A stretch of 61,213 nt of DNA. Source: Gammaproteobacteria bacterium. Its GTDB lineage: Bacteria; Pseudomonadota; Gammaproteobacteria; Pseudomonadales; Azotimanducaceae. Below the pieces are notes generated by a model that ran no database searches, was not told where the DNA came from, and saw only the letters and a list, made by a program, of their open reading frames with translations. Shown here piece by piece: positions 1,739-10,246 of this stretch (position 1 is its first letter; every line of letters begins with the position of its first letter). Position numbers and translations under genes: made by a program. The stretch covers positions 1 to 61,213 of the forward strand of contig PBRP01000044.1 of NCBI GenBank assembly GCA_002726655.1. Direction: 5' to 3'.

Positions 1739-2104
1739 CTAGGGCGCACCCTTACATTTGCAAAAACCTCTTAGTACCTGCACCAGGCCATCGACTTCCT
1801 GCCCGGTCAATGTCTTGGACCAGGGTGGCATTAGTGCAGATTTGCTTAGGGCCGGGCCACCGTCAAGAATGACGTTCTTGATATCGGCGTCCGAGAGCTT
1901 CTCCATCTCGGCGGTCTTGGTAAAGTTTCTGGGGTCGGTGGCAAAATCGGCGGTGACATTCGGACCATCCCCTTCACCACCCAGTCCATGACATTGAGCA
2001 CAATAGAATTTAAATACAGCTTCCGGTTCTGAGGCACAAGCCGCCTCAGTCATGAAGACAATAAACAGCGAAGCAATTAGTAAAGTTGATTTCTTCATTT
2101 TCAT
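1739..2104 (-). CDS. periplasmic monoheme cytochrome c
   Basis: A 121-residue protein with a signal peptide (MKMKKSTLLIASLFIVFMTE, probable cleavage after AACA) and one c-type heme site, CAQCH at residues 35-39. The distal Met is probably in the SALMPPW segment near the C-terminal third, as in small class I cytochromes. The C-terminus ends CKCKGAP, with two extra cysteines of unknown use. Its start overlaps the stop of the diheme cytochrome gene (ATGA at 2104-2101). It probably passes electrons between the diheme protein and the CydA-like membrane subunit. Confidence 0.85.
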   Translation of the reverse strand: MKMKKSTLLIASLFIVFMTEAACASEPEAVFKFYCAQCHGLGGEGDGPNVTADFATDPRNFTKTAEMEKLSDADIKNVILDGGPALSKSALMPPWSKTLTGQEVDGLVQVLRGFCKCKGAP

Positions 2105-2772
2105 TCTCCCTTGAAGCTAGCCACGTAAGAAGAAACAAATTCCATATCCTTGGGGCTTAGTATCCCCTTGAAAACAGGCATCATCTTCACCGGCTTAAAA
2201 ACTGTTGGCTCCGTCAGATAGGCAAGTATCCAGTCCGGGTTGAGGCGTTTCCCTGCGCCAACCAGGGACGGGCCACTAGCACCTCCCCTTACATTTTTCC
2301 TGTCCTCATATTGGTGGCAACCACTGCATGGCATCTTCTTCTTGAAAATTAGTTTGCCCTTGGGGTGAGCCTTGGCTTTGATTTTTCCTGCTACGACCAC
2401 ATCCGATGTGAGCGACATCAGAAAGTCTGCAACCTGTGTCGCATCACCAGCTGAAAGCGCCGGATGATCGCCAGGATTCTTCTCCTCGAGGGAATTGTAT
2501 TTCATCAGGCGAATAGGTTTTGGTGTGCTGAGCCAGGCTTCCAGCCATGGTCGGTTAAATTTGCTGCCGGCATACCAGAGTTCCGGTCCTTTTTTTGCCA
2601 GCTGATCTTCAATCGTTTTTTCCCGCGCAGGTCCCTGCGTATAGTGGCAGTCACCACAGCCATTTGTACCGAACGCTGCTTCACCACCGCTGGCGTCTGC
2701 CAGAGCAGGTGATGTCTGAATAGCTACAACCAGCGTTGCGGCCAGTAACAGAAATTTGTTCACATTTTCCAC
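2101..2772 (-). CDS. periplasmic diheme cytochrome c
   Basis: A 223-residue secreted protein (signal peptide to about residue 26, SPALADA) with two c-type heme motifs, CGDCH (39-43) and CSGCH (149-153), each in its own domain separated by a Lys-rich linker. It is first in a tight minus-strand operon: diheme cytochrome, monoheme cytochrome, three microproteins, CydA-like subunit. A duplicated cytochrome of this kind fits an electron carrier or donor subunit for the membrane oxidoreductase. A perfect Anr/FNR box lies about 216 nt upstream of its start (2988-3001), pointing to oxygen-responsive control. Confidence 0.85.
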   Translation of the reverse strand: MENVNKFLLLAATLVVAIQTSPALADASGGEAAFGTNGCGDCHYTQGPAREKTIEDQLAKKGPELWYAGSKFNRPWLEAWLSTPKPIRLMKYNSLEEKNPGDHPALSAGDATQVADFLMSLTSDVVVAGKIKAKAHPKGKLIFKKKMPCSGCHQYEDRKNVRGGASGPSLVGAGKRLNPDWILAYLTEPTVFKPVKMMPVFKGILSPKDMEFVSSYVASFKGE

Positions 2773-4049: not shown

Positions 4050-4595
4050 ATGACCAGTCTGTCACCGCCGAAAGACAAAATCTGGTGGAATGAACCGATT
4101 GAACGCACCGAGTTGATCTGGATCACCATCGTATTCTTATGGGGTCTCGTAATGACTTTCATGATGCCATTCTGGCATGTGGTGGGGGATCAGAACATAT
4201 CCAGTGAGACCTACAAGACCACGCCTGAAAAGTTCATGCAGCAGACCCAGGCATTTGTGGACGAGTATACGGTTAGAAAGGATGATGGCCCACGGCAATA
4301 CCCGGTTGTGAAACCACCACCCGGTGGTGATGTGTATCTGGTGGCAAGACTCTGGGATTTTTGGCCCGTTGTCGAGTTAAAGAAAGGCGAATCCTATCGA
4401 TTCCACCTGAGCTCTCTGGACTGGCAACATGGATTTTCTCTCCAGCCAGCAAATATCAATATTCAGATTATTCCAAAGTACGAGCATGTTGTGACCTTCA
4501 CGCCTAACAAGTCGGGAGATTACAGTGTGTTGTGTAATGAATATTGCGGCATCGGTCATCACATGATGATCGGCAAGATAATCGTTGTGGAGTAG
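4050..4595 (+). CDS. ba3-type heme-copper oxidase subunit II with CuA site (NorS-like)
   Basis: 181 residues: one N-terminal membrane anchor (about 22-42) and a periplasmic cupredoxin domain. A complete CuA set is visible: His127 (DWQHGF), Cys162, Glu164, Cys166, His170 and Met173 in the CNEYCGIGHHMM segment. The single-helix anchor is typical of B-type (ba3) oxidases and of the sNOR subunit NorS. AGGAG lies 6-7 nt before the ATG. Five nucleotides separate it from the start of subunit I. It accepts electrons from a cytochrome c or cupredoxin and passes them to the low-spin heme of subunit I. Whether the terminal acceptor is oxygen or nitric oxide depends on subunit I. Confidence 0.9.
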   Translation: MTSLSPPKDKIWWNEPIERTELIWITIVFLWGLVMTFMMPFWHVVGDQNISSETYKTTPEKFMQQTQAFVDEYTVRKDDGPRQYPVVKPPPGGDVYLVARLWDFWPVVELKKGESYRFHLSSLDWQHGFSLQPANINIQIIPKYEHVVTFTPNKSGDYSVLCNEYCGIGHHMMIGKIIVVE

Positions 4596-4599
4596 GGTT

Positions 4600-6291
4600 A
4601 TGTCAGAACAATTCAGAATTTGCCCTGACACTGGGCTCAAGCTATACCAATCAACGGAAACACTTATTAAGGCTAATGCGGTCGCTGCTGTTGTGTTTTT
4701 ACTGGTGGGTGGAATATATGGACTGTTAGTCGGCCTGACACGTTGGCCCGCTGTACACCTGCTGCCCGCCGACTGGTTCTATCTGGCCCTGACGGGGCAT
4801 GGCCTCAATGTGCTCATCTTTTGGCTTATATTTTTCGAGATGGCGGTATTGTATTTTGCGTCTTCTGTGATACTGGGAAGTCGTCTTGCCGTACCGAAAT
4901 TTGCGTGGGCGGGGTTTGCGCTGATGCTGATCGGGGCGCTCATGAATAACTATATAGTCCTGAGTGGTGAAGCAAGCGTCATGATGACATCCTATGCACC
5001 GATGGATGCGCATCCACTGTTTTATCTAAGCCTTATACTGTTTGCAGTAGGTGCTCTGTTGGGCTGCTTTGTATTTTTCGGCACGCTGGTGGTTGCGAAA
5101 GAAGAAAAAACCTATGAGGGCTCTGTTCCCCTGGTCACTTTTGGCGCAATCACAGCAGCAATCATTGCTGTATTTACGATCATAAGCGGAGCAATCATCC
5201 TGATTCCCACCCTGCTCTGGAGCCTTGGGTTCCTGGCGGAAATTGATGCCCTGATGTATCGCCTTATCTGGTGGGCTTTTGGCCATTCGTCACAGCAGAT
5301 TAATGTGGCAGCTCACATTGCGGTCTGGTATGCCATCGCTTCGATTGTTTTTGGTGCGAAACCCATGTCTGAAAAAGTCAGTCGCATGGCCTTTTTCATG
5401 TATATCCTGTTTTTGCAGCTTGCAAGTGCACACCACCTGCTGGTGGATCCAGGTGTCAGCTCAGAATTCAAGATGTTCAACACCAGCTATGCCATGTATC
5501 TCGCGGTTATGGCCAGCATGGTTCACGGGCTTACTGTCCCAGGTTCCATTGAGCAGGCGCAACGTGCCAAGGGAATCAACGCTGGCCTGTTCGAGTGGTT
5601 GCGACGTGCCCCCTGGGGTAATCCGACCTTCTCTGGAATGTTTCTCTCGCTGATCGGGTTTGGTTTTCTCGGCGGGATTTCGGGTGTAACGATGGGCGCG
5701 GAGCAGATCAATATCCTGGTTCACAATACTGTCTATGTTCCTGGGCATTTTCACGCCACCGTGGTTCTTGGCACCACACTCGCCTTCATGGCCATGACCT
5801 ATTGGCTGGTCCCGGTTATTTTCCGCCGTGATCTGATTTGGAAAGGTCTGGCGAGTTGGCAGCCTTATCTGTTCGGCCTGGGTATGGCAGGCGTATCCCT
5901 GTTCCTGATGGGTGCTGGTACTCTCGGTGTTCCCCGTCGGCATTGGGACATTACCTTCTCGATGACAGGTGGTGAGGTCTACGAATTCCCCGCAGCCGCC
6001 AATACGTTGCTTGCGCTCAATGGTTTGTCGGTTGCGCTGGCCGTCGCGGGAGGTGCCGCCTTCTGTCTTATCATTGTCGGTTCATTGCTGTTTGGCAGGA
6101 AGCTCGGGCCGGATGAAAAACTGGCGACACCACATATCGCAACACCTCCCAGTGACGCTGATTACGAGAAACTGGGTAATGGAATTACAGTACCCGGTAC
6201 ACTGGTCCTGGCGCTTGTGTTCTTTGCGGCATTTGCAGTGTATTATTTCATCAACTGGAAATACCTCGCGGAAACCTGGGGTATTAGCTGA
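4600..6291 (+). CDS. ba3-type heme-copper oxidase subunit I lacking the active-site Tyr; candidate nitric oxide reductase (sNOR/NorY-like)
   Basis: 563 residues, about 13 helices. The metal ligands are present: low-spin heme His67 (GHGLN) and His385, high-spin heme His383 (PGHFH), CuB His229 (WAFGHSS), His278 and His279 (ASAHHLL). The residue four after the first CuB His, which in Thermus ba3 and other A/B-type oxygen reductases is the Tyr cross-linked to that His, is Gln233 (GHSSQQINV). Loss of this Tyr is a hallmark of NO-reducing members. Gene order subunit II - subunit I - senC equals norSY-senC of Nitrosococcus, Nitrosomonas and methanotrophs. ATG 4600 follows the AGTAGGG stretch that overlaps the subunit II stop; an in-frame ATG at 4585 would overlap subunit II. 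The oxidase family is certain, NO reductase activity is inference. Confidence 0.9.
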   Translation: MSEQFRICPDTGLKLYQSTETLIKANAVAAVVFLLVGGIYGLLVGLTRWPAVHLLPADWFYLALTGHGLNVLIFWLIFFEMAVLYFASSVILGSRLAVPKFAWAGFALMLIGALMNNYIVLSGEASVMMTSYAPMDAHPLFYLSLILFAVGALLGCFVFFGTLVVAKEEKTYEGSVPLVTFGAITAAIIAVFTIISGAIILIPTLLWSLGFLAEIDALMYRLIWWAFGHSSQQINVAAHIAVWYAIASIVFGAKPMSEKVSRMAFFMYILFLQLASAHHLLVDPGVSSEFKMFNTSYAMYLAVMASMVHGLTVPGSIEQAQRAKGINAGLFEWLRRAPWGNPTFSGMFLSLIGFGFLGGISGVTMGAEQINILVHNTVYVPGHFHATVVLGTTLAFMAMTYWLVPVIFRRDLIWKGLASWQPYLFGLGMAGVSLFLMGAGTLGVPRRHWDITFSMTGGEVYEFPAAANTLLALNGLSVALAVAGGAAFCLIIVGSLLFGRKLGPDEKLATPHIATPPSDADYEKLGNGITVPGTLVLALVFFAAFAVYYFINWKYLAETWGIS

Positions 6292-6397: not shown

Positions 6398-7210
6398 ATG
6401 TTACGAGTGAAACCCTGGATTTTCCTGTTGCTGTGCCTGGCATACGCTGGCCTGATAAAGGCTGATGCGAATCATGGACAGATGCAGATGAGTGCCTTTG
6501 GCCGTGAAGAGGCGCTCGAGAAAAGTCAGTCTGTGATTGGTCGGCTGGTGGGTAACCACAGGCTCCTGGATACCGCCGGCAAGTACGTGGAGTTATCTTC
6601 CTATTCGGGCAAGCCGCTCGTCATCAGCTTAATCTACACCAGTTGCTTCCACATTTGCCCAACTACAACTCAGCATTTGTCGAGCGTGGTTCAAAAGGCA
6701 CGTGAAGCACTTGGCAATGAGACCTTCAATATCATCTCTGTTGGGTTTGACGTGCATAGGGACAGGCCTCCAGTGATGGAACAATTTGCCAAAAAGCAGA
6801 ATATTGACCTCACCAGCTGGCGGTTTCTGAGTGCTGATGAAGCAACAATTGGTCGTTTGAGCGAAGATCTTGGCTTCATCTATTATCCGTCACCGAATGG
6901 TTTTGATCATCTGATTCAGACTTCCATCATCGATGGGCAGGGGCGGGTGTACCGTCAGGTTTACGGTATGGATTTTGACATACCACTGCTGATTGACCCA
7001 TTGAAGGCGCTGGTATTCTCTTCGGAAGACAAGGGGTTGGTTGAGGGCGTATCCAATAAGATTCGCCTGTTTTGTACTATCTACGACCCTGCGCGGGACA
7101 AGTATCGTTTTGACTATTCCGTATTCATCGGTACATTCATTGGTTTTATGTGTGTCCTGGTCTTTGGCATACAACTGTTTAAGGAGTGGCGGTTAACGCT
7201 GCGATCCTGA
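6398..7210 (+). CDS. SCO1/SenC/PrrC-family copper chaperone
   Basis: 270 residues with an N-terminal signal/anchor, a thioredoxin-fold SCO domain and an additional C-terminal helix (about 240-262, IGTFIGFMCVLVFGIQLF), so it is anchored at the C-terminus too. The Cu ligands are visible: Cys83 and Cys87 (TSCFHICP) and His171 (GFDHLIQ). The family delivers copper to the CuA site of subunit II. It is third in the operon, as senC is in norSY-senC loci. Its stop TGA (7208-7210) overlaps the ATG of the next gene by one base, so expression is coupled. Confidence 0.9.
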   Translation: MLRVKPWIFLLLCLAYAGLIKADANHGQMQMSAFGREEALEKSQSVIGRLVGNHRLLDTAGKYVELSSYSGKPLVISLIYTSCFHICPTTTQHLSSVVQKAREALGNETFNIISVGFDVHRDRPPVMEQFAKKQNIDLTSWRFLSADEATIGRLSEDLGFIYYPSPNGFDHLIQTSIIDGQGRVYRQVYGMDFDIPLLIDPLKALVFSSEDKGLVEGVSNKIRLFCTIYDPARDKYRFDYSVFIGTFIGFMCVLVFGIQLFKEWRLTLRS

Positions 7211-8694
7211 TGCTGAAACCTGTCGCAAAATGTATGGATTGGGTGTTTCCCAACCACTGGAACCCGATGGAGAATCTCGGCGCTCTGTCCTTCTACTTAT
7301 TCTGGGTCATCACGGCGACCGGTATCTATCTTTTTGTCTTTTTTGAAACCAGCATAGATGGCGCCTGGCTATCGGTGGAAAAGATCAGCAATGAACAATT
7401 CTACATTGGCAGTATCATGCGAGGCGTACATCGCTTTGCATCAACAGCCATGGCCGTAACCGTAACGCTCCATTTGATCAAGGAACTGCTGTTGAAACGC
7501 TACGCGGGTGCGCGCTGGTTTTCCTGGGTCAGTGGGGTTCCACTGCTTTGGCTTCTGTTTGCTTCCGACCTGGGTGGTTACTGGCTGGTGTGGGATGAAA
7601 AAGCCCAGTACATTGCAATGACAAGTGCGGCACTGTTTGATGCCATTCCGATCGTCGTTGAGCCGATGGCATTCGGCTTTCTTAGCCAGGAGGTGGTGAG
7701 TGACCGGTTCTTTACGCTACTGATTTTTTTGCATGTGGGTATTCCTTTGGCATTGCTGCTGGGGATGTTCTTTCACCTCCAGAGAATCAATCATTCCCGG
7801 TCTATACCAAGAAGGCGGCTGGCCGTCAGTGTTCTAGTAGCGCTGATTGTTATTTCCCTGTTGATGCCTGCAACCAGCATGCCCCGGGCAAATCTCGACA
7901 AGGTATTAGGGCCGATTGAGATGGATTGGTTCTATATGAACCCGTTCCCCTTCATTGATATGTGGGGTCCAGGTGTTGTCTGGGCAGTCCTTGTCTCTTT
8001 TTCTACGTTACTGCTGCTATTGCCCTTGACCGCCCGTGCTACACGCAGCATTGCCAGAGTTGATCCTGATTATTGCAATGGCTGTGGCTGGTGTTACCAG
8101 GACTGTCCCTTTGATGCAATTTATATGAAGCCCCATGACTTTATGAAGAACCATATGCAGGCGGTTGTTAAAGAAGACTGGTGTGTTGGCTGCGGAATTT
8201 GTTCCGGTGCCTGCCCGACGGTCACGCCTTTCAAGCGGTTCAATGAGGCGAACAGCGGAATAAACCTGGTGGATCGCGTGAACTTTGATGTTTTGTCAGA
8301 AGCACGTGAAAAACTCAGGGAAAGAACCACTGCAGGAAAAATACTGGTCATTGGTTGTGATTACGGAACAGACGTTCGGCAGTTTGAAGATGAGCAGGTT
8401 GTTGCAGAAACTCTGGAGTGCATTGGCCAGTTGCCCCCTTCCTTCATGGACTATTTGTGTCGCAGGGAGGATGTGGAGGCAGTACTGATGACCGGCTGCC
8501 GGTCTGATGATTGTTACCACAGGCTAGGTGTGGAGTTGCAACAGGAAAGGCTTGTTAGGTTGAGAGAACCACATCTTAAATATGCTGATGTCAGAGACAG
8601 GATAGGAAAATTGTGGATAGGAAAGGGGGGCGAGAAAGAAATCAGATCGCACCTTACAGGAATTAAAAAGCAGCTGGAGGAAGAGGGTGTCTAA
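7210..8694 (+). CDS. cytochrome b - 2x[4Fe-4S] ferredoxin - MvhD/FlpD fusion protein
   Basis: 494 residues in three parts. Residues about 20-280 form a cytochrome b/b6-like membrane domain with His74 and His88 (GVHRF, TLHLIKE) and His175 and His189 (FLHVG, FFHLQR) as likely heme ligands. Residues 289-336 carry two [4Fe-4S] motifs, CNGCGWCYQDCP and CVGCGICSGACP. Residues about 375-485 match the hydrogenase iron-sulfur (MvhD/FlpD) fold, with VIGCDYG and MTGCRSDDCYHRLG. ATG 7210 overlaps the senC stop (TGATG); a GTG at 7186 is open in the same frame but coincides with the AAGGAG itself. It probably moves electrons between the quinone pool and a cytoplasmic iron-sulfur partner. MvhD normally serves Hdr/hydrogenase complexes of anaerobes, and the partner here is unknown. 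Confidence 0.8.
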   Translation: MLKPVAKCMDWVFPNHWNPMENLGALSFYLFWVITATGIYLFVFFETSIDGAWLSVEKISNEQFYIGSIMRGVHRFASTAMAVTVTLHLIKELLLKRYAGARWFSWVSGVPLLWLLFASDLGGYWLVWDEKAQYIAMTSAALFDAIPIVVEPMAFGFLSQEVVSDRFFTLLIFLHVGIPLALLLGMFFHLQRINHSRSIPRRRLAVSVLVALIVISLLMPATSMPRANLDKVLGPIEMDWFYMNPFPFIDMWGPGVVWAVLVSFSTLLLLLPLTARATRSIARVDPDYCNGCGWCYQDCPFDAIYMKPHDFMKNHMQAVVKEDWCVGCGICSGACPTVTPFKRFNEANSGINLVDRVNFDVLSEAREKLRERTTAGKILVIGCDYGTDVRQFEDEQVVAETLECIGQLPPSFMDYLCRREDVEAVLMTGCRSDDCYHRLGVELQQERLVRLREPHLKYADVRDRIGKLWIGKGGEKEIRSHLTGIKKQLEEEGV

Positions 8695-9226
8695 ATTGCT
8701 TGTTACCTTATCCGAGTTGGGGGCGCCGCGAGTGATTGCGCAGGCGACCTTTTATCTCTTTATCGGTCTCTTGATGGCTTATCTCAGCACTTCACCCACC
8801 TATCAGTATGCTGACGATACGGCAGTGGAACTAAAGCTGGTTATTCGCCACAGTGGTTTATTCATAGGGGAGTGTCGACCCATCAGTGAAGCGGAGGCAG
8901 GGAAATTGCGACCCAATATGCGTGCGCCGCAGGTTTGTCCAAGGGAAAAGTCTTCAATGAATGTATCCCTTGCCGTAAATGATGCGCCTTTCCATGAAGG
9001 CGTAATCAAACCAGCTGGTCTGCATAACGATGGAGTCCTCGCCCTCTACAGGCATTTCACCCTAGTAGCAGGCAAGATATCGGTGCGGCTGGCCATAGAG
9101 AATGGAAAGGATGGGTTGCGGGTCTTTGAACAGGTAATCGATGCGAACCCGGCAGATGTTTTGCTTCTGCAATACGACGATGCGGGCTTTCGCTTCTCAA
9201 AGGCTGCCGAGCGCGGCGCAGGGTAG
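8687..9226 (+). CDS. membrane-anchored protein of unknown function, end of the oxidase operon
   Basis: 179 residues from GTG 8687 (GGAGG six nt upstream); it overlaps the fusion gene by 8 nt. One N-terminal helix (about 17-36, TFYLFIGLLMAYLS) anchors a roughly 140-residue beta-rich periplasmic domain with CRPISEAEAGKLRPNMRAPQ and a second Cys in QVCPRE. I do not recognise the family. The overlap argues for a role together with the cytochrome b-ferredoxin fusion or the oxidase; it takes the position of 'orf1' in norSY-senC-orf1 clusters, but no homology is claimed. Confidence 0.7.
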   Translation: MSKLLVTLSELGAPRVIAQATFYLFIGLLMAYLSTSPTYQYADDTAVELKLVIRHSGLFIGECRPISEAEAGKLRPNMRAPQVCPREKSSMNVSLAVNDAPFHEGVIKPAGLHNDGVLALYRHFTLVAGKISVRLAIENGKDGLRVFEQVIDANPADVLLLQYDDAGFRFSKAAERGAG

Positions 9227-9280: not shown

Positions 9281-10246
9281 TCAATCTTGGCTTGAAGCGT
9301 ACTGGTAGACAACTGCCAGAAGTAGCAGCAAAGACCAGAAGTTATGTATCCAGGCACTGAGAAGCGTCGGTTCTTCCAAAATACCCAGGGCGATCAGCCC
9401 AACCGTAATTGTTAGGATAGAAATTACCGTTTTCCTCGTATTTTTATGATTCAGCGTGGCCGAAACGATGAGAGAAATGCAGAGCAGTATTGCTAAGAAG
9501 TGATGTCCCCATTCGATTGATAAACGCACATCTGATAACAGCAGCCTTCCATCAGATTCCGTTAGTTCCGTCCTAATATTGAATGCATTACCCATCTGTT
9601 CGACTGACAAGGGTCCGCAGTCCAGGAAACCTGTACAGGTGCCGGCGGCGAAATTCCCGCTTACCCAGGCGCCTGATGCGATAACAATAGTAACCAGCCA
9701 TATGTTGGCAAGGTTCAGCCAGCGCCTGGTTGTCATAGGGGCATTACCGGGAGGGTTGCGCAGTCGCAAAACGAGCAACCAGACGATTGCAGTCGTCAAC
9801 ATTCCGCCGGTAAGGTTTGCCAGGGTAACAGCCGGAAGTAGAATATTCGGCGTATTGATGCCCACCAGTGCCAGAAGAATCGTTAGTGCAAAACACACTG
9901 TGGCAAGTGTCGGCCGTATGTGAATCTGCTGCCGATACAAGAGGCTAGAGAGCATTAGCAGGGTAGCGACAACGGCAAAAGTACTGGCCATGAGTCGATG
10001 CAGCAATCGCAGACCTCTGTTTTCGTCGTCTGCGGTGATAGTAATACCAGGCTCGGGGTCAATGGCGTAGTTTGAGGCCTGACAATCGGGCCAGGGTGAA
10101 CACCCAATGCTTGAACTAGCCAGTCTGATGTAGGCGCTCAGAAAAGTCATGGACAGGATCAGAGTCAACGCGATGACCGAAAGCGCTAATACGCGACGTT
10201 CTATATTGTTCACGGTTTGATGCTTCTCACTGGTTCCCCATGACAA
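9281..10246 (-). CDS. divergent heme A synthase-like protein (COX15/CtaA family)
   Basis: 321 residues, eight predicted helices. Recognisable CtaA/COX15 signatures are RLASSSIGCSPWPDC near the N-terminus (family: RLTxSGLGCPDWPxC), ENRGLRLLHRLMAS, WGHHFLA and a final IHNFWSLLLL. Where the family has a heme-ligating His in helix 4 (VVTxHL), this protein has Asn (PAVTLANLTGG), so one of four expected ligands is missing. Heme A synthase converts heme O to heme A; with a missing ligand the activity may be altered. The start could also be GTG 10213. It is convergent to the oxidase operon, so it may supply its heme. Confidence 0.75.
   Translation of the reverse strand: MSWGTSEKHQTVNNIERRVLALSVIALTLILSMTFLSAYIRLASSSIGCSPWPDCQASNYAIDPEPGITITADDENRGLRLLHRLMASTFAVVATLLMLSSLLYRQQIHIRPTLATVCFALTILLALVGINTPNILLPAVTLANLTGGMLTTAIVWLLVLRLRNPPGNAPMTTRRWLNLANIWLVTIVIASGAWVSGNFAAGTCTGFLDCGPLSVEQMGNAFNIRTELTESDGRLLLSDVRLSIEWGHHFLAILLCISLIVSATLNHKNTRKTVISILTITVGLIALGILEEPTLLSAWIHNFWSLLLLLAVVYQYASSQD

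Follow-up and report, generated by a model that had tools for sequence, protein, structure and literature searches.

An eNOR-type nitric oxide reductase, probably part of a NirS denitrification pathway, and its companion genes in a gammaproteobacterium

Introduction

Nitric oxide reductases (NORs) rank among the main biological sources of N2O, a greenhouse gas. One class of them, eNOR, is reportedly the subject of works by Hemp and Gennis (2008) and Murali et al. (2024), the latter of whom are said to have purified an eNOR. In oxidases, an active-site tyrosine gives an electron for O–O bond cleavage, which NO coupling does not need. In the cbb3 oxidases a helix-VII tyrosine, about six residues before the first histidine of the CuB pair, serves in place of the helix VI tyrosine. 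The cbb3 oxidase genes are followed by the assembly genes CcoG/RdxA and FixH.

The residue at the tyrosine position differs among the classes: according to Table A4 of PMC8756737, it is Tyr in oxygen reductases, Gln in eNOR, Asn in sNOR and CuANOR (bNOR), Asp in gNOR and Glu in cNOR/qNOR. The eNOR sequences of that study were picked by the Gln at this position; its passages on distribution name Proteobacteria, Chloroflexi and haloarchaea, with putative eNOR in Alpha-, Beta-, Gamma- and Deltaproteobacteria. A passage of PMC11388526 counts eNOR as one of four biochemically characterised NOR families. It is treated as an existing NOR class in the relevant parts of PMC8756737, PMC11388526, PMC9270275, PMC12569097, PMC10734462, PMC10359470 and PMC8114936, three of which (PMC8756737, PMC10734462 and PMC8114936) mention a proposed proton channel or pump. 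PMC12569097 worked with a reference set of 67 Nor sequences, drawn from cNOR, qNOR, bNOR, eNOR, gNOR, sNOR and nNOR.

Here we describe a locus from a gammaproteobacterium of the family Azotimanducaceae, in a window of 61,213 nucleotides (the whole stretch of DNA that was analysed). The locus very probably encodes an eNOR-type nitric oxide reductase, a member of an established class that has been characterised biochemically and was known before from Gammaproteobacteria; the enzyme would carry out the NO-to-N2O step of a NirS denitrification pathway. The basis of this reading is sequence, conservation, clade, gene neighbourhood and co-occurrence with NirS, from which we infer the reaction catalysed, the path of the electrons, the proton channel and the identities of the metals. 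The most interesting part of the locus is its companion genes. A cytochrome b/Fe-S/FlpD protein, a beta-sandwich protein and a CuB-less paralogue of subunit I are leads on eNOR assembly or electron feed.

A glutamine replaces the active-site tyrosine

The gene for the heme-copper catalytic subunit, subunit I, occupies positions 4600–6291 of the forward strand and encodes 563 residues with no internal stop and a Pfam COX1 match of 219.3 bits. We chose the ATG at 4600 as the start; the frame is already open from a TTG at 4585. When 103 subunit I rows are aligned, among them two copies of the window protein, H67 and H385 align with the ligands of the low-spin heme, H383 with that of the high-spin heme, and H229, H278 and H279 with those of CuB (codons of the H278–H279 pair at 5431–5436, forward strand). 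All six metal-ligand histidines that a preliminary description had claimed were found in this way. That description had also put Gln233 in the place of the cross-linked tyrosine, four residues past the CuB ligand H229, and the translation bears this out with exact numbering: the helix VI motif reads FGHSSQQINV, and the codons of H229-S-S-Q232-Q233 lie at 5284–5298 on the forward strand.

Relatives were sought across 84,980 species, each represented by one genome, and the best 80 of 573 relatives are referred to as named loci. Together with the window, seven relatives from its family and three plasmid records, they make up 91 eNOR rows, 88 of them distinct (L027 equals L008, and L029 equals L009, over the stretch compared; the named loci overlap with the genome census described below). 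H229, Q232, Q233 and N235 are identical in all 91 rows, and columns 232, 233 and 235 read V, Y and W in nine of nine B-type oxidases. With Q232, Q233 and N235 identical throughout, Gln233 is neither a sequencing slip nor chance. Eight residues in total (E80, Q232, Q233, N235, S261, Y268, N294 and H309) are invariant in the 91 rows and missing from the same columns of the nine oxidases. The histidine ligands are invariant as well, except for H385, which is kept in 90 of 91: the Thermus thermophilus eNOR (L014:8983–10668) has HFK for HFH, with Lys replacing the low-spin heme histidine at column 385. A degenerate homologue with ligand losses, which carries Tyr at column 233, was excluded from the nine oxidases. 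This COX1-family protein from an Azospirillum brasilense plasmid (L024:2001–3212) has YH for HH, besides further ligand losses.

From the lost tyrosine, the preliminary description had rightly recognised an NO-reductase-type relative of the B-type oxidases: Gln at this position is the published mark of eNOR in the table of PMC8756737. It had gone on to propose an sNOR-type nitric oxide reductase encoded by a norSY-senC-like cluster, pointing to the loss of the tyrosine and to the order subunit II, subunit I, SenC. The locus does resemble sNOR (NorSY of Nitrosomonas) in its two subunits, its kinship with B-type oxidases and this gene order. However, sNOR has Asn and eNOR has Gln at the tyrosine position in the same table (PMC8756737), so Gln233 argues for eNOR and against sNOR; moreover, the gene order is not specific to sNOR, since it is common to the eNOR loci examined, often with a heme O synthase gene inserted. 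The sNOR subtype was thus wrongly assigned, and an sNOR at this locus is extremely improbable.

The remaining classes can be compared in the same manner, the placement against sNOR, gNOR, bNOR and nNOR being by the published residue table rather than by a tree. That table (PMC8756737) leads one to expect Asp in gNOR, Asn in bNOR/CuANOR and Glu in cNOR/qNOR, where the window protein has Gln233. For cNOR/qNOR, in addition, a Sinorhizobium NorB query matches nothing in the genome at E 1e-15, the window gene included. With the described eNOR (PMC8756737) the enzyme shares Gln at the tyrosine position, six histidines and a B-type-like subunit I; the gene for a cupredoxin subunit II lies directly upstream of subunit I, and nothing excludes membership. 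Asn or Asp at the tyrosine position occurred in none of 50 regions from 369 genomes of the class, all of which have Tyr, Gln or Phe; these regions, from a profile search with at most three candidates scored per genome, comprise 30 loci chosen by the program and 20 lower-scoring ones picked by hand. The search for sNOR, gNOR and bNOR also took in plasmids, by tblastn with the window protein (59 of 59 records) and with Geobacillus b(o/a)3 (the best 60 of 111), and yielded no reference for these classes among the records listed. A Ruegeria sequence (L132) was discarded as a NOR reference, its annotation being that of a quinol oxidase cluster.

The Gln-bearing enzymes group apart from B-type oxygen reductases

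In a quick maximum-likelihood tree of 70 rows, the 46 rows with Gln form one side of a branch with an SH-aLRT support of 100. The 18 Tyr-bearing B-type rows group separately (SH-aLRT 94), and six A-type rows serve as the outgroup; in a more careful tree of 32 rows, eight of the Tyr-bearing B-type rows group at 99/98. Placement of the window protein inside the Tyr-bearing ba3 oxidases, which the preliminary description had named as a refuting outcome, did not occur. The window protein pairs with its homologue in G003, the closest relative in the census, to which it is 90% identical (SH-aLRT 99). The Gln side also takes in homologues from Thermus thermophilus and Thermomicrobium roseum, which we call eNOR by their motif. 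A long-branch warning attaches to the 70-row tree, for L014 with L015 among others; the window's own place is unaffected.

The predicted fold of subunit I, computed from 44 sequences, has a mean pLDDT of 82.9. Foldseek ranks 1–21 are held by ba3-type chains and 7deg. VIA-align scores A-type chains at Z 36.0 (16% identity) and B-type chains at Z 34.8 (27%); this slight lead of the A-type chains in a comparison of predicted structure would count against the eNOR reading.

These results bear on a further possibility, also raised in the preliminary description, that the enzyme is an oxygen reductase in which the role of the lost tyrosine falls to another, the likeliest being Y268 of helix VII. Like the B-type oxygen reductases (Thermus ba3 and Geobacillus b(o/a)3), the enzyme has an oxidase-like predicted fold, six histidines and a CuA subunit II, and all 91 eNOR rows carry Y268 where nine of nine oxidases have Phe. 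It differs from them in having Gln for the helix VI tyrosine, N235 where they have W and H309 where they have T, and in lying outside the Tyr clade. Y268 itself lies ten residues before the first histidine of the CuB pair, one helical turn beyond the cbb3 tyrosine. Furthermore, the genome already holds an aa3-type oxidase, and eNOR tracks NirS across genomes (see below). With the reservation about Y268 kept in mind, we reject a B-type oxygen reductase and consider oxygen reduction by way of another tyrosine highly improbable.

The nearest named relatives of the eNOR, in the species scan and in the tree, are from Pseudomonadales and Halieaceae metagenome-assembled genomes. All of the best 80 of 573 relatives belong to Pseudomonadota or its subgroups; being best matches only, they do not show the full spread of eNOR. 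The best plasmid matches come from Defluviimonas (65%), Thermomicrobium roseum (50%, covering 81% of the query) and Thermus thermophilus (48%), followed by halophile and other oxidases at no more than 35% over most of their length. The plasmid eNOR homologues are annotated as cbb3-type or b(o/a)3-type cytochrome c oxidase. Because routine annotation labels eNOR as an oxidase subunit, denitrifiers that use it can seem to have no NOR.

A conserved gene set follows the reductase genes

Both flanking genes named in the preliminary description were recovered by Pfam search. Upstream of subunit I lies the gene for subunit II (4050–4595, forward strand), a protein of 181 residues with one N-terminal membrane helix and a cupredoxin domain; of its COX2/cupredoxin matches, those to Pfam lie under their cut-offs. 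Its CuA ligands H127, C162, E164, C166, H170 and M173 are kept in 83–84 of 84 aligned subunits II. Downstream lies a gene for an SCO1/SenC copper-insertion protein (6398–7210, forward strand; 270 residues; PF02630, 53.8 bits).

Two further genes follow on the same strand. The first (7186–8694) encodes a fusion protein of 502 residues, which combines an N-terminal di-heme membrane domain of cytochrome b with two 4Fe-4S motifs and an FlpD/MvhD-like domain (PF00033, Fer4 and PF02662, the last at 22.1 bits against a cut-off of 22.3). H82, H96, H183 and H197, which have the spacing of a di-heme cytochrome b, are conserved in 59 of 59 rows, as are 11 of the protein's 12 cysteines, the twelfth being kept in 58; the rows are the window and 58 of 70 homologues, in the range of 431–599 residues, the 12 homologues outside this range being excluded. 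The second gene (8687–9226) encodes a beta-sandwich protein of 179 residues with one membrane helix (predicted fold, pLDDT 93.1). It belongs to no Pfam family. We had labelled it FixH-like solely for its position, and we reject a FixH identity: no Pfam family is common to more than two of 41 members, and Foldseek gave weak hits, none of them a confident PDB match. In four loci (L041, L042, L088 and L089) it is fused to the cytochrome b protein.

This set is a regular feature of the relatives. In 43 of the 44 named loci (of the best 80 of 573) that are flanked by 6 kb or more on either side, subunits II and I are followed by homologues of the SCO protein, the cytochrome b/4Fe-4S/FlpD fusion and the 179-residue protein, the exception being L073; the genes of the last two are swapped in four of the 44. 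Heme O synthase is found in 29 of these well-flanked loci and a hemerythrin-like gene in 24. By contrast, the Thermus and Thermomicrobium eNOR genes show no SCO, cytochrome b/4Fe-4S/FlpD or beta-sandwich gene and no CuB-less paralogue within 7–9 kb.

The arrangement recalls CcoG/RdxA-FixH, with oxidase-type genes followed by those for an SCO protein, a membrane protein that bears two 4Fe-4S motifs and a beta-domain protein with one helix. It differs in that the window fusion has a cytochrome b di-heme domain and an added FlpD-like domain, and in that no Pfam or PDB match ties the small protein to FixH. Assembly functions would fall to SCO and, in relatives, to heme O synthase. Since their position after SCO recalls CcoG-FixH, our first guess by analogy is that the fusion and the 179-residue protein may supply electrons for copper insertion.

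A convergent neighbour at 9281–10246 (reverse strand) encodes a COX15/CtaA heme A synthase (PF02628, 62 bits). It has a homologue in 18 of the 44 well-flanked named loci and is probably a support gene for eNOR. Two c-type cytochrome genes recognised by Pfam (1739–2104 and 2101–2772; together 1739–2772, reverse strand) are possible electron donors, but a link to eNOR is not supported: the pair has a homologue in none of the 80 named loci (the best 80 of 573).

Link to NirS and denitrification

The host assembly amounts to 3.92 Mb in 161 contigs and is 91.0% complete and 3.0% contaminated. It encodes NarG (1330 bits against a cut-off of 1084), NirS (574 residues, 484.7 bits to the Cytochrom_D1 domain) behind a NosR/NirI-like gene (573.9 bits, below the model cut-off of 1000), and a clade III lactonase-type L-NosZ on contig C151 (L111; 733.6 bits against a cut-off of 700), which is cut by the contig end and which is present in three of the 206 genomes of the host's family. 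The classical NosZ model and NirK both stayed below cut-off in the host genome, and cNOR/qNOR had no match there with the Sinorhizobium NorB query at E 1e-15. All three recognised genes are on contigs other than the window's, on which searches found no NirS, NosZ, NarG, NirK or c/qNorB, save a weak NosZ match to the cupredoxin domain of subunit II. The earlier claim that the window holds no other denitrification gene is thus right for the window but does not extend to the genome.

If these contigs belong together, the organism is a nitrate-to-N2 denitrifier with eNOR as its only recognised NOR. Given an assembly of 161 contigs, 91% complete and 3% contaminated, the contigs that hold NarG, NirS and L-NosZ could come from another organism. 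The G+C content is 0.49–0.51 in the window and in the stretches holding NirS, L-NosZ and the CuB-less paralogue (contig C33). A second NirS-like gene, consisting of two overlapping frames beside a molybdopterin oxidoreductase gene, lies on contig C102 (L117:7998–9607) and also on C47; the near-equal NirS-like scores on the two contigs suggest a duplicated stretch of the assembly.

To follow these genes across relatives, we took a census of the 206 genomes of the host's family, its own included: 11 have eNOR, 18 have NirS at 380 bits or more, and 41 have a NorB match. The NirS threshold was set after the scores had been seen and leaves 11 genomes with weaker cytochrome d1 matches uncounted, and the NorB matches are by similarity with no active-site residue filter, many at 26–43% identity. 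NirS is present in 10 of the 11 eNOR genomes and in 8 of the 195 others (Fisher p 1.5e-11, relatedness ignored). Of the 18 NirS genomes, ten have eNOR, and one of these ten has a NorB match; of the eight without eNOR, five have such a match (two-sided p 0.043), and the other three (G002, G021 and G159) have neither eNOR nor a NorB match. Two genomes of one genus count against the NirS-pathway reading: G003 has eNOR and no NirS match, and G002 has NirS and no eNOR match.

NirS and eNOR are also linked physically. Of the 80 named loci (the best 80 of 573), 23 have a NirS match above 300 bits no further than about 10 kb from eNOR, against 0.42 expected if each 4-Mb genome held one NirS at a random position; nine of the 23 matches are within 5 kb. 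The other 57 have no NirS above 300 bits in the stretch, many of these stretches being short; five named loci with NirS-like matches under 300 bits were not counted as NirS. G090 has a NirS homologue immediately upstream of its subunit II gene. In Thermus thermophilus, the 48% homologue is within 6 kb of a nitrite reductase gene; it sits next to genes for an Rrf2 regulator and a DUF542 protein and near a multicopper oxidase-domain gene.

The enzyme might instead be a detoxifying or dual-purpose NO reductase under micro-oxic conditions, not mainly one of respiratory denitrification. According to a passage of PMC11388526, eNOR also reduces NO under micro-oxic conditions; the G003 eNOR without a NirS match and the hemerythrin-like gene in 24 of 44 well-flanked loci point the same way. 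The tight co-occurrence and linkage with NirS speak against it, yet both roles can coexist. We judge a mainly non-respiratory role rather unlikely.

For the eNOR of a NirS pathway, we propose the following mechanism. Electrons would pass from a c-type cytochrome to CuA in subunit II, on to the low-spin heme (H67/H385) and then to the binuclear site, formed by the high-spin heme (H383) and CuB (H229, H278 and H279), at which two NO would be coupled. The reaction would most likely be 2 NO + 2 e- + 2 H+ -> N2O + H2O. Because NO coupling needs only two electrons, the tyrosine would be dispensable, with Gln233 in its place. Judging from residue conservation, protons would probably arrive through a modified K-type channel of Y244, S306, H309 and T312 with E21 of subunit II. 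In the eNOR rows Y244, S306 and H309 are invariant and position 312 is T or S, and the oxidases have T at 309 and Y at 240; E21 is kept in 84 of 84 aligned subunits II.

A COX1-family paralogue lacks the CuB histidine pair

Four COX1 matches are present in the host genome: the aa3-type oxidase (contig C27), the window gene, and proteins of 475 (C33) and 584 residues (C39). The 475-residue protein (C33:2043–3467; 2043–3470 in L116; COX1, 63.8 bits) is encoded on another contig than eNOR, beside COX3-like and SCO-like genes. Its H72, H219, H350, H352 and H397 are kept in 22 of 22 aligned members, an alignment that excludes seven of 28 named loci (L031, L032, L035, L059, L072, L088 and L100). A conserved His-His pair is lacking at the CuB position; three members carry an HH at some point from residue 219 to residue 350. 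The protein has no PDB profile match at 0.01 and no NCBIfam model. A literature search at the level of titles and abstract openings brought up no description of a CuB-less paralogue near eNOR; it may still have been described, for example as nNOR.

This paralogue accompanies eNOR closely. It is present in 28 of the 80 named loci (the best 80 of 573), and 18 of these 28 belong to the 44 well-flanked loci. Twenty-two of the 80 carry it directly downstream of eNOR and in the same orientation, the alignment ends being -42 to +204 bp apart. Herbaspirillum sp. ST 5-3 (L083) has homologues of the paralogue, the cytochrome b/FlpD fusion and the 179-residue protein next to eNOR. All 11 eNOR genomes of the census have the paralogue, as do three of the 195 others (G002, G019 and G085; p 6.7e-16). 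Among NirS genomes it tracks eNOR (10 of 10) and not NirS as such (one of eight). Two genomes of the class, G292 and G555, have the paralogue and no eNOR among the matches listed, so the link is strong but not absolute.

A profile comparison of the paralogue with eNOR gave a probability of 99.6. In the careful tree of 32 rows, which excludes a very long cNorB row that an earlier tree had held, the paralogue is joined to eNOR at 100/99, and eNOR then forms one side of a branch (94/79); the alternative topology of eNOR with the B-type oxidases was rejected (AU p 0.0018). Tentatively, and with more doubt than confidence, we suggest that the eNOR of Pseudomonadota may be part of a larger membrane system, with its CuB-less sister and the cytochrome b/Fe-S/FlpD protein as partners. 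The paralogue would then stem from an old duplication at the base of eNOR and might act, for example, as a second subunit with heme or as a module that binds NO or takes in electrons. If the suggestion is true, eNOR would be, to our knowledge, the first heme-copper reductase to have a degenerate subunit I for a permanent partner.

The 584-residue COX1-family protein (L115:6442–8196) has a C-terminal cytochrome c-like CxxCH and, by eye, no helix VI histidine. The C39 stretch that encodes it has a G+C content of 0.60, and this contig is probably foreign to the genome, given 60% G+C against 49.5% in the window.
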